DNA from: Nocardioides aquaticus
GTDB taxonomy: Bacteria; Actinomycetota; Actinomycetes; Propionibacteriales; Nocardioidaceae
Assembly (NCBI RefSeq): GCF_018459925.1
Contig: NZ_CP075371.1
Location: forward strand, 496,001-560,000
DNA length: 64,000 nt
Direction of reading: 5' to 3'
Positions 22,301 to 24,624 of this stretch are shown here, piece after piece (position 1 is the first letter of the stretch; the number at the start of each line of letters is the position of its first letter). The notes under the pieces are model-generated. The model was given only the letters and a program-made list of their open reading frames with translations, was not told the origin of the DNA and did not search any database. The translations under genes were made by a program, and so were the position numbers.

Positions 22301-22570
22301 GGCGCCGCGCTCGCGCAGGGACTGCACGAGGTACTCGAAGTACTCGATGTGGCCGCCCTGGTAGCTGCTGACGGCGACGCCCTGGACGTCCTCCTGGACG
22401 GCGGCGTCGACGACGTCGGCGACCGAGCGGTTGTGCCCGAGGTGGATCACCTCGCAGCCCTGGCTCTGCAGGATCCGCCGCATGATGTTGATCGAGGCGT
22501 CGTGGCCGTCGAAGAGGGCGGAGGCCGTGACGAGGCGCACCGGGTTGGTGGGGACGTGGAGCTCGGGCAC
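19346..22570 (-). CDS. icmF: Fused isobutyryl-CoA mutase IcmF (B12 domain, G-protein chaperone, mutase)
   Basis: The start GTG 22570 (VPELHVPTNPVRL) has AGGAGG 5 bases upstream, giving 1074 residues, the usual IcmF length. In order there is a B12-binding domain with FDGHDASINIMRRIL (His for the lower axial position) and SYQGGH. Next is a MeaI-type GTPase with P-loop GTGGSGKSSL, ETPGIGQGD and NKFERRGAKD. Last is the TIM-barrel mutase with RTAEGRDPSEEE and NANSLHTNAYDEA. It interconverts isobutyryl-CoA and n-butyryl-CoA using adenosylcobalamin, with the GTPase protecting and reloading cofactor. It would feed branched acyl-CoA into beta-oxidation. A 20-bp palindrome lies 40 bases upstream. Confidence 0.93.
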   Translation of the reverse strand: MPELHVPTNPVRLVTASALFDGHDASINIMRRILQSQGCEVIHLGHNRSVADVVDAAVQEDVQGVAVSSYQGGHIEYFEYLVQSLRERGAGHVKVVGGGGGVIVRDEITRLRESGVTIFAPEDGQRLGLAGMISTVVADCDTDLWQAGAVTADQVLTGDHAAIARAITGAETGRLDEATLTRLREAAAGHQVPVLGITGTGGSGKSSLTDELVRRLRLDQQDKLRVAVLAVDPTRRKGGGALLGDRIRMNSLDGDRVYFRSLATRGARELPEHLDDVMTVLKAAGFDLVVVETPGIGQGDAAIVPFVDTSLYVMTPEFGAASQLEKIDMLDFADVVAINKFERRGAKDALRDVGRQLVRNREAFGKQPDDMPVFGTSAATFNDDGVTALYQELRGLLADRGLPVADGVLPAVDVRHSSGIRQVVPTDRVRYLAEITETVRGYHAETERLADAARRLQQVEAVTAALGEGDQGDVPQLLEKSRREVPPALHDQLAGWPAVVESYSGQEQVTKVRDTEITTQLTRESLSGSRIPRVALPAYADHGELVRFWRHENLPGMFPFTAGVFPFKRDGEDPARMFAGEGDPARTNRRFKVLSADGDAKRLSTAFDSVTLYGRDPDPRPDIYGKVGTSGVSVATLDDMRVLYGGFDLTSPTTSVSMTINGPAPTVLAFFLNTVIDQEVEKFRTAEGRDPSEEETAMLAAHAVATVRGTVQADILKEDQGQNTCLFSTEFSLRMMADIQEWFIEKGVRNFYSVSISGYHIAEAGANPISQLAFTLANGFTYVEAYLARGMDIDAFAPNLSFFFSNGMDPEYSVIGRVARRIWAVAMKEKYGANERSQKLKYHVQTSGRSLHAQEMDFNDIRTTLQALIAIYDNANSLHTNAYDEAVTTPGAESVRRALAIQLIINREWGMAMNENPLQGSFVIDQLTDLVEEAVLAEFDRINERGGVLGAMETGYQRGRIQDESMLYEHRKHDGSLPIVGVNTFLAPQSDDATPQHVELARATEEEKEGQLERVQSFRTAHTDEGEAALARLKEAAMGGENVFAVLMDAARVCSLGQVTEAFFEVGGQYRRNV

Positions 22571-22610
22571 GGGTGCCTCCTGCGGCGGGGGAGTGGGGCT
22601 GGTCACGACA

Positions 22611-22630
22611 TTAGTAGGACGTCCTACTAA
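22611..22630. promoter_or_regulatory. Perfect 20-bp palindrome, operator between icmF and GH6-like gene
   Basis: TTAGTAGGACGTCCTACTAA is fully self-complementary and strikingly A/T-rich for this region. It sits between two divergent starts (22570 and 22677), where a TetR-type repressor site is expected. The cognate regulator is not identifiable here. Confidence 0.75.
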
Positions 22631-22676
22631 ATGCCATCCGCCCTCGGGCCGGCCCGGGGCGTCGTACCGTCGGTGG

Positions 22677-23756
22677 GTGACCCGACGCCTGACCGCCCTG
22701 CTCCTCGGCGCCCTCGCGCTGCTGCTCGCCGTGCCCGCCGGTGCCGGCGCCGGGGCCGCCCCGGCCGCGCCGCGGGACAACCCGCTGGCCGGGCGGGAGT
22801 GGGGCACCTACCGGGGCCCGGCCGAGATGGCCTGGCAGCCCTACGTCGACGCCCGCGGTCCGCGGAAGAGGACGCTGGCGCGGATCGCGCAGACCCCGAA
22901 GGCGAAGTGGTTCGGCGCCTGGATCCCCGACCGCGAGATCGCGGGCAAGGTGCGTGAGTACGTCGCGAACGCCCAGGGCGGCGACCCGTCGGTGCTGGTG
23001 CAGATGTCGGTCTTCCGGATGGTGCCGTGGGAGCACGAGGCGTGCTCCCGGCTGCCCACCGCACGGGAGCAGGCGTCGTACCGGACCTGGATCGACAACT
23101 TCGCGCGCGCCCTCGGCGACACCCCGGCCGCGGTCGTGCTGCAGCCCGACCTGCCGTTCGCGCTGTGCGTGCCGCGCGGCTCGGACGTGCCGACCCGGCT
23201 GGTGGCCTACGCCGCGAAGAAGCTCGCGGACCTGCCCCGCACCTCGGTCTACCTCGACGCGGGCGCGGCGGACTGGCCCTCGGCGGGGCAGGGTGGCGTG
23301 CGGCGGGCCCTGGACTTCCTGGTCCCGGCGGGGATCCGGCACGTGCGCGGCGTGGCCCTGAACGCGACGCACTACTCCGCCACCGCGCTGGAGGTGCGCC
23401 GTGCGGCCGCCCTGGTGAAGGCGCTGGACGCGCGCGGCATCACCGGCAAGCACGCGGTGATCAACACCTCCTCCAACGGCCAGCCGTTCAAGTTCGGCGA
23501 GTACGACGGCCCGGACCCCGACAACGCCCGCACCTGCCGCTCCCGTCACGACACCCGCCGCTGCGTCGCGCTCGGGATCCCGCCGACCCACCGCGTCGCC
23601 GCCGACCGCTGGCGGCTGCCGGCCGAGGTCGACCGGCTCGCCCGCCGCTACGTCGACGCCTACCTGTGGGTCGGCCGGCCCTGGCTGTACCGCCAGAACT
23701 CGCCGTTCCAGATGAAGCGGGCGCTGGCCGTGGTGCGCTCCAGCCCCTGGCGCTAG
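22677..23756 (+). CDS. Secreted GH6-like glycosidase homologue
   Basis: GTG 22677 opens a Sec signal peptide (RR, LTALLLGALALLLAVPAGA, cut near residue 25), then a GH6-fold domain; 359 residues in all. Recognisable blocks are AKWFGAWIP, YRTWIDNFARAL, VVLQPDLPFAL (for VVxEPDxL), VYLDAGAADW, GVALNATHY and INTSSNGQPF. The block that normally holds the catalytic acid (NIPxRDCG in cellulases) reads VFRMVPWEHEAC, so the standard Asp is absent. A cellulase role is unsure: an altered specificity or a carbohydrate-binding role is possible. It is divergent from icmF across the palindrome. Confidence 0.78.
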   Translation: MTRRLTALLLGALALLLAVPAGAGAGAAPAAPRDNPLAGREWGTYRGPAEMAWQPYVDARGPRKRTLARIAQTPKAKWFGAWIPDREIAGKVREYVANAQGGDPSVLVQMSVFRMVPWEHEACSRLPTAREQASYRTWIDNFARALGDTPAAVVLQPDLPFALCVPRGSDVPTRLVAYAAKKLADLPRTSVYLDAGAADWPSAGQGGVRRALDFLVPAGIRHVRGVALNATHYSATALEVRRAAALVKALDARGITGKHAVINTSSNGQPFKFGEYDGPDPDNARTCRSRHDTRRCVALGIPPTHRVAADRWRLPAEVDRLARRYVDAYLWVGRPWLYRQNSPFQMKRALAVVRSSPWR

Positions 23757-23763
23757 TCGTCCG

Positions 23764-23873
23764 GCGTAGCCAGGCGTACCCAACGGGTCCGGGGTGCTAG
23801 CGGCCAGGCCGCTGACCTGCGTCGACGCGGATGCCCGCGCGGCATCGGCCGCGGTTGGTACGCCTGGCTACGC
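23764..23873. repeat. Long perfect inverted repeat with inner hairpins, element 1
   Basis: GCGTAGCCAGGCGTACC (23764-23780) pairs with its exact complement at 23857-23873. The 76-base interior holds two more hairpins: AGCGG/CCGCT at 23799-23813 and GATGCC/GGCATC at 23830-23846. Folded, this is a three-way junction. It lies between the 3' ends of two convergent genes. Confidence 0.85.
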
Positions 23874-23905
23874 GGTAGCACCGGCCCGGCCCAGGGGTTC
23901 TGGAA

Positions 23906-24008
23906 CGGAAGAACGTACACAAGCCGTGCTGCCGCCCCCGCGGCCGCGCATCACCGCAGGTCAGCGCGGTCCACCCGGGCCCGGCCCGGGCTTGTGTACG
24001 TTCTTCCG
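23906..24008. repeat. Long perfect inverted repeat with inner hairpin, element 2
   Basis: CGGAAGAACGTACACAAGCC (23906-23925) pairs with its exact 20-base complement at 23989-24008 across 63 bases. Inside, CCGCGC/GCGCGG (23944-23949, 23964-23969) can form another stem. It is unrelated in sequence to element 1, but has the same size and build. Confidence 0.85.
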
Positions 24009-24024
24009 TCGGCCGCGGGCCGAC

Positions 24025-24624
24025 TCAGCAGCACAGATGGGCGCGCAGGCCGCGCATCGCCTCGTCGACGAGGCCGGCCAGGGAGCGGGAGGGGTCGCGC
24101 ATCCAGGCGTCGTAGGCCGCCAGCGCCAGCGCCAGGGAGACGTGGCCGACGGTGGTGGGCAGCAGGTCGGTGGGGGCGCAGCCCAGCCGGTCGGCGACGT
24201 GCTCGGCGATCACGGCGCGCCACTCGGCGTAGCGCAGCGCGGAGTGGGCCTGGAGCTCCGGCGTGCCGAGGATCAGCTCCATCCGCTCGCGGTGGCCGGG
24301 GCGGGCGTCGCCGGGGAACTCGTTGAAGCGCACCACGCCGCGGTGCACCGCCTCCCACAAGGGGAGGCCGGCCGGGGTGGCGTCGAGGATCCGGCGGAAG
24401 TCGTCGAGGGTGCGGTCGAACTGCCCCCACGGGATGTCGTTCTTGGAGCGGTAGTAGCGGAACAGGGTCCGCCGCCCGACGCCGACCGCCGCGGCGATGT
24501 CGTCCAGCGTGGTGCCGGCGAAGCCCCGCTCGGCGAACAGGCCGAAGGCGGCCTGCTCGATCGCAGCGTGGCTGGTGGCTCCCGGGCGCCCGGCCGCCCG
24601 CGGGCGCGCCGGCGTGGTCGTCAT
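24025..24624 (-). CDS. mftR: Mycofactocin system TetR regulator MftR
   Basis: The 199-residue TetR protein has the HTH TTLDDIAAAVGVGRRTLFRY followed by YRSKNDIPWGQFDRTLDDFR, a hallmark of MftR. MftR proteins repress mycofactocin biosynthesis and respond to acyl-CoA in mycobacteria. The C-terminus ends in LRAHLCC. The gene is divergent from mftA with 132 bases between starts. That gap holds the dyad GTGACG-N7-CGTCAC. Downstream of its 3' end lie the two long inverted repeats. Confidence 0.9.
   Translation of the reverse strand: MTTTPARPRAAGRPGATSHAAIEQAAFGLFAERGFAGTTLDDIAAAVGVGRRTLFRYYRSKNDIPWGQFDRTLDDFRRILDATPAGLPLWEAVHRGVVRFNEFPGDARPGHRERMELILGTPELQAHSALRYAEWRAVIAEHVADRLGCAPTDLLPTTVGHVSLALALAAYDAWMRDPSRSLAGLVDEAMRGLRAHLCC

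Follow-up and report, generated by a model that had tools for sequence, protein, structure and literature searches.

The closest working parallel to the elements described here is the REPIN-RAYT system. REPINs are similar to them in overall size. In the published account, REPINs are extragenic inverted doublets of which one genome has several flavours, and repeats that match them are located near genes of a low-copy family (PMC3116915). The elements reported below resemble them in these respects; the match between dispersed inverted doublets and repeats beside a low-copy gene is present here, not for every arm type. The two systems differ in the partner protein, which here combines an AbiEi-like region with a DUF559/Vsr-like domain, in the arms, which by eye are mostly not palindromic (one type in the Nocardioides genome G195 is), and in the conserved asymmetric core and the helical phasing of double-stranded DNA seen here. 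Furthermore, the Y1 transposase (PF01797) was absent from all of 14 genomes searched, the six richest in elements among them, while the same search was positive in 5 of 14 control genomes. Membership in the REP/REPIN-RAYT class was therefore rejected.

A second parallel is provided by the antitoxins AbiEi and Rv2827c on their operators. The Streptococcus agalactiae AbiEi bends DNA and binds to a pair of 23-bp inverted repeats with 3 bp between them, Rv2827c binds pairs located 13 bp apart, and neither protein binds the sites of the other (PMC7319586). An AbiEi-like region, inverted repeats of about 20-23 bp and spacing classes 10 bp apart are common to these proteins (PMC7319586) and to the present case. 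In contrast, the repeats described here lie about 45-100 bp apart, enclose a core and are dispersed chromosome-wide, and the protein carries an added nuclease-like domain. The BIME, RIB and Correia elements are likewise inverted repeats in intergenic DNA at transcript ends. We know of no sequence relation between them and the present elements, which differ from them in having a G+C-rich core common to several genera and arms that pair with a gene family. A Correia element is able to carry an IHF site, according to PMC10969869. Titles and abstract openings in the open-licence literature on 'DUF559' contain no mention of dispersed repeats.

Results

Two inverted repeats between convergent genes

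The window, i.e. the whole stretch of 64,000 nucleotides of Nocardioides aquaticus DNA that was analysed, contains two inverted repeats, A and B, side by side between convergent genes. Upstream of them is a glycosyl hydrolase family 6 gene (22431..23756, + strand; PF01341; the longest open frame was taken and its start is approximate), whose stop codon is 7 bp short of element A. On the other side is mftR, a TetR-type gene (24025..24624, - strand; PF17754 MftR C-terminal domain and PF00440), whose stop codon lies 15 bp past element B, so that the location given in an earlier note on this DNA, beside mftR and between convergent genes, is right (gene ends at 23756 and 24025). Element A consists of a left arm of type A (23764..23780, + strand; GCGTAGCCAGGCGTACC), a left spacer (23781..23804) whose length is rigid and whose sequence is not conserved, a central core (23805..23828; CAGGCCGCTGACCTGCGTCGACGC) with its best conserved stretch at 23811-23827, a right spacer (23829..23856) and the inverted right arm (23857..23873; GGTACGCCTGGCTACGC), which matches the left arm in exact pairs. 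Element B is oriented the other way. In its own orientation, on the - strand, it has a left arm of type B at 23989..24009 (ACGGAAGAACGTACACAAGCC), a core at 23949..23965 (GCTGACCTGCGGTGATG) and a right arm at 23905..23925 (GGCTTGTGTACGTTCTTCCGT). The earlier note had given outer stems of 17 and 20 base pairs around 76 and 63 bases; element A indeed has 17 exact pairs enclosing 76 nt, and the 63 nt of element B are enclosed by 21 exact pairs instead of 20. The same note called the two stem-loops unrelated in sequence, which is true of the arms. The core of A on the + strand and that of B on the - strand, however, are one and the same asymmetric core, GCTGACCTGCGgyGAyG.

As a yardstick, 30 other Nocardioides loci were sampled in 600 windows of 230 bp, none of which contained an inverted repeat scoring at least 15. 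RNA folding of the A/B region was 4.9 sd (+ strand) and 5.6 sd (- strand) below that of shuffled sequences, with none of 200 shuffles reaching the native value on either strand, and a search of the region against Rfam gave no match, even at E 10. In Nocardioides sp. AX2bis the same two genes are followed by one element of type D and one of type B, which are separated by about 500 bp of additional DNA (L134 4675-5442, as compared with 23764-24009 of the window).

Copies in the genome and in relatives

A search for copies elsewhere, as had been proposed in the earlier note, was productive both in the own genome and in relatives, and the lack of conservation and of copies that would have spoken against the elements was not observed. 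The DNA search of the own genome gave 13 matches, including the place of the query. Searches with the arms only gave six type-B and five type-A elements, and the core was present in all 11 of these with 0-4 mismatches in 16 positions. With a covariance model based on 12 elements, 19 places were detected in the own genome (E of about 0.02 or better, each place being counted once), and when 147 genomes of the genus were scanned with the same model one other genome stood out, that of AX2bis (G148), with 17 elements. These 36 elements (19 and 17) were used for a second model, which at E 0.001 matched in 14 of 215 Nocardioides genomes: at least 18 times each in the window genome, AX2bis and G195, five times each in G096 and G013 (one G013 place being counted on both strands) and once each in nine others. 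At E 0.01, matches were also found in Kineosphaera limosa (42) and Piscicoccus intestinalis (33), both Dermatophilaceae, and in an Actinomycetota MAG (9). A pattern scan of all genomes returned 38 stretches, ten in AX2bis, seven in K. limosa, one each in Piscicoccus and the MAG, and 19 which by eye were without convincing arms. Later counts do not include loci L143-L145 and the low-scoring places. One Piscicoccus locus (L220) contains two tandem elements 242 bp apart, which agree in arms, core and spacer lengths and seem to have arisen by a recent local duplication.

Arms, core and spacers

All elements have the order arm, spacer, core, spacer, inverted arm. The arms fall into types, those of the window genome and AX2bis being A to F, with others in the other genomes, and within one type the arm sequence itself is shared, beyond mere complementarity. 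The core profile of 114 elements reads C-R-n3-C-G-CTGACCTGC-R-g-Y-G-A-Y-G-C, with TGACCTG conserved at 94-100% and little information farther out; these percentages are inflated, since most of the 114 elements were selected by means of models or filters in which the core is scored, and the unbiased check is given by the elements found by arms alone, all 11 of which have the core. Read as RNA, the CUGA and GAUG boxes of the core resemble a kink-turn, which we take to be a coincidence, probably. One arm type of G195 (L196, L264, L265, L267) contains a palindrome-like stretch of its own, e.g. TCCTCGTGGCCACGAGGA, and each of its arms is able to form a hairpin, as each REP sequence does.

The lengths of the spacers were found to be fixed for each arm type. 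Leaving out four measures from two doubtful cores (L255 minus strand and the second element of L243), the elements with arms that matched no anchor out of nine, as well as type M2 (two elements), and with measurements within one type being non-independent, 187 of 212 spacers were within 1 bp of the mode of their type, eight of the 187 coming from four elements (L119, L120, L125 and L127) whose ends were placed by eye on an outer GTA motif. The remaining 25, from seven arm types and several genomes, were all 9-11 bp off.

One suggestion of the earlier note was a pair of structured RNAs, and long RNA hairpins at the ends of transcripts, including bidirectional terminators, would explain the strong folding, the position of many elements directly past stop codons and the covariation of the arms. 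Of 18 pairs 17 had changed on both sides, and 86% of the cells were paired compared with 60% when shuffled and 32-40% when slid. The compensatory changes asked for by the earlier note are therefore there, but covariation would also be expected if the arms were two copies of one binding site. Among the arm mismatches of the 36 Nocardioides elements alone, 13 were G-U and seven A-C, which speaks for RNA, whereas over all elements 33 G-U stood against 40 A-C. Spacer steps of 9-11 bp are unexpected for single-stranded loops, no conserved pairing inside the loop was present in the 36 aligned elements, Rfam gave no match, and an arm sequence common to a whole type exceeds what complementarity requires. 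We regard the RNA reading as very unlikely, and rejected it mainly on the 10-bp spacer steps and the overall counts of G-U and A-C. Since the spacers change by 9-11 bp and G-U is no commoner than A-C, the anatomy speaks for a protein complex on double-stranded DNA and not for RNA; a fixed spacer length would fit a complex assembled on one face of the double helix and is hard to reconcile with an RNA loop.

Position relative to genes and conservation at orthologous loci

Among 109 elements from the five genome groups, 50 were in convergent, 44 in tandem and 12 in divergent gaps, with three undetermined, on gene calls that were home-made and approximate and with two places counted on both strands. 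None of the 109 was located wholly within a gene and three overlapped a gene end. For the 36 elements of the two Nocardioides the numbers were 15 convergent, 17 tandem and four divergent, compared with 13, 63 and 62 among 138 element-free gaps of at least 60 bp at the same loci.

BIME and RIB elements are gene-end sites for IHF and gyrase, and the elements could in a similar way be fixed regulatory or chromosome-architecture sites at gene ends, bound by an AbiEi-like protein and not mobile. The preference for convergent over divergent gaps speaks for such sites, and so does the pattern of conservation. The window genome and AX2bis have 11 orthologous places, at all of which the spacing class is identical. 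Five of these retain the arm type, and in the five pairs differences were counted at 15 of 230 positions in the arm zones and 2 of 85 in the core, in contrast to 51 of 279 in the spacers (Fisher p ~1e-4). Against fixed sites speak the very uneven copy number (at E 0.001, 201 of 215 Nocardioides were without a match), the absence of one compared element from the sister species, and the nuclease-like domain of the protein described below, with its invariant acidic and histidine residues in five aligned sequences. On balance we consider this explanation unlikely.

At the other six orthologous places, that of element A among them, the flanks can be aligned and location and spacing class agree, but both arms belong to a different type. 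Spacer likeness at these arm-switched loci was best in its row in two cases only. A change of arms by simple divergence was discarded, and on these figures a rewriting of the arms in place at orthologous sites is suggested, no more firmly than that.

The first of the three guesses of the earlier note, miniature inverted-repeat elements, came nearest, in that copies exist elsewhere. Ordinary MITEs derived from a known insertion-sequence family would account for inverted terminal repeats, a length of about 110 bp, an intergenic location and multiple copies, and one near-duplicate pair (750B and 2639B) does exist in the window genome. Apart from this pair, the spacers of same-type copies within the window genome or AX2bis are no more alike than background, which a MITE would not lead one to expect, as it would not the constraint in place at orthologous loci. 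Clean insertions were sought for four of the eight elements of the own genome that have no known counterpart in AX2bis. The element of L119, next to a gene resembling that of ribosomal protein S20 by eye, is missing from AX2bis, with no clean boundary to be seen, and at this one absent site compared there was no clean target duplication. In place of L118, AX2bis has a longer, different gap, L120 was matched there by one flank only, and both flanks of L121 were matched about 2.8 kb apart. Together with the lack of a Y1 transposase, the one transposase family covered, in 14 genomes and a matching gene that belongs to another family, the unrelated spacers, the constraint in place and the lack of a visible target duplication at that site make an origin as ordinary MITEs highly improbable.

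A family of AbiEi-DUF559 proteins near the elements

When open frames near the elements were compared in the five genome groups, one protein family, and no other, was seen in four of the five. Its members are about 300-390 aa long and combine an AbiEi-like region with a domain of the DUF559 or REase_MTES_1575 (Vsr-like nuclease) kind. The PADLOC AbiEi model PDLC02249 matched all five proteins analysed (best E 8.4e-11) and Pfam AbiEi_4 two of them, only below its cut-off; DUF559 and/or MTES_1575 were found in all five, several times below the Pfam cut-off. Residues corresponding to D, E-x-D, H and D were invariant among the five aligned proteins. The only PDB match below E 0.1 was 3r3p, 'Mobile intron protein', a homing endonuclease with a Vsr-like fold; this likeness of the nuclease domain is weak (E 0.015), and one PADLOC 'homing endonuclease' model matched one of the five proteins. 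Many candidate sites within one genome, as found here, set the system apart from a homing endonuclease. It also departs from the AbiE type IV toxin-antitoxin systems, as the antitoxin-like region is present but the AbiEii (DUF1814) toxin gene was found in none of ten neighbouring frames at five loci. A match to AAA_21, described as putative AbiEii toxin, was dismissed as an ABC transporter ATPase.

With the best nine candidates per genome scored, the gene was matched at E 1e-25 in 144 of 215 Nocardioides genomes, mostly one to three times, and in 71 it was not matched. It was present in all 14 element-matching genomes and in 130 of the 201 others (p 0.003); conversely, 130 of the 144 gene-bearing genomes had no element match at E 0.001. 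One gene match each was obtained in the window genome (G000 4045418-4046363; L126/L283) and in AX2bis (G148 95238-96180; L128/L282). The two orthologues share about 60% identity, with 10/30 in the presumed recognition region, compared with about 87-95% in the flanks, and the element beside them is of type B in the window genome and of type F in AX2bis.

Pairing of genes with arm types

The 3' end of the gene overlaps an element in the window genome, AX2bis, G013, G161 and the MAG. In the window genome the overlapping element has type B arms, as in element B, and the single gene found there at E 1e-25 (best nine candidates) fits type B; none was found for types A, C, D and E. An inverted repeat scoring at least 12 was present at the gene 3' end in 21 of 30 returned loci, compared with 5 of 600 control windows, and one scoring at least 15 in 13 of 30 compared with none of 600. 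The arm of the 3' repeat recurred upstream of its own gene, at 85% or better, in 7 of 21 cases, compared with 8 of 609 for the upstream zones of other loci. At six loci (L288, L290, L300, L304, L306 and L307) inverted repeats with the same arms flank the gene, one of them upstream at about -175 to -55 and the other spanning the stop codon. Many gene-side repeats are without the core, several gene loci are without a clear repeat, some repeats are hundreds of bp away from the gene (L314, L319, L325), and two of the genes look broken (L299, L317/L321).

Outside the two best-studied genomes, three gene loci of K. limosa are located at most 1.5 kb from arm types K1, K2 and K3-like, one of the genes being only partly matched. 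At K. limosa L317/L321 the gene is split in two pieces near K3-like arms, and K3 elements persist. Of six genes in the MAG, two are located next to M2 and M3 and one more next to a new repeat, one of two Piscicoccus genes is near P1, and the two genes of G195 are near its two main arm types, one of these genes having an internal stop codon.

The gene-side arms were then compared with dispersed arms of all genomes. For 17 gene-side arms, hand-picked with the dispersed arms known and thus not blind, the own genome was strictly best in 12 cases, one of them weak (score 10 vs 9), and in 13 with ties, and the observed sum was reached by none of 20,000 label permutations. Not strictly best were M3, G169, G123 and G113, plus type B, which was tied and occurs also in AX2bis. 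This comparison has no row for the gene loci without a clear repeat (L316, L318, L320, L323, L324, L326, L329, L330, L332, L333 and L334); for G161 (L331), L335, L336 and most of L284-L311 there was no known dispersed element to compare, and for G181 the upstream repeat (score 13) was taken instead of the 3' one (score 10). The pairing of several arm types with AbiEi-DUF559 genes suggests that the genes and their candidate dispersed target sites evolve together. Judged from these sequence matches, the arms are very likely the cognate sites of the AbiEi-DUF559 family.

Discussion

The explanation which we favour, and which we hold to be probable, is that A and B are arm-core-arm elements with paired arms as sites of an AbiEi-DUF559 protein, and that they belong to a set of dispersed, gene-dependent copies. 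The element would be an inverted pair of binding sites on one helix face, at fixed distances from the common core. By analogy with AbiEi on its 23-bp repeats, the protein may bind both arms, probably as two touching subunits that bend the DNA, and the core may be contacted by the same or by another protein. The dispersed elements could then be satellites that rely on the gene and are spread or rewritten by means of its nuclease, much as REPINs rely on RAYTs. In the window genome, element B would go with the single AbiEi-DUF559 gene that was found, and element A with a paralogue that escaped the search or has been lost; as types A, C, D and E have no gene in this genome, the assignment of element A is made by family likeness.

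Whether the elements are spread or rewritten by the protein, or serve only as its regulatory sites, is evenly balanced on the present comparison of genomes. A point against simple spreading is that same-type copies share arms and core and not the spacers, which is unexpected for a simple copying element. In a stronger version, the AbiEi-like protein with its homing-type nuclease would form a self-maintaining gene-site system which keeps, spreads and rewrites its own paired sites chromosome-wide. Changes in the recognition surface would be followed by a rewriting of both arms of existing sites in place, and for this reason orthologous sites of sister species would keep position, core and spacing but differ in their arms. 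We put this forward tentatively, as possible but rather doubtful. If true, dispersed bacterial repeats would have a new way of arising that does not involve RAYTs, and the system would offer a natural code of protein-DNA recognition.

A common and little-studied type of protein, matched in 144 of 215 Nocardioides genomes, would be tied to a target in the DNA, the sequence of which is in many cases legible next to the gene. About two dozen natural pairs of protein and site would become available, together with an example of site sets that switch arms between sister species, and the elements may represent a second origin of REPIN-like repeats.
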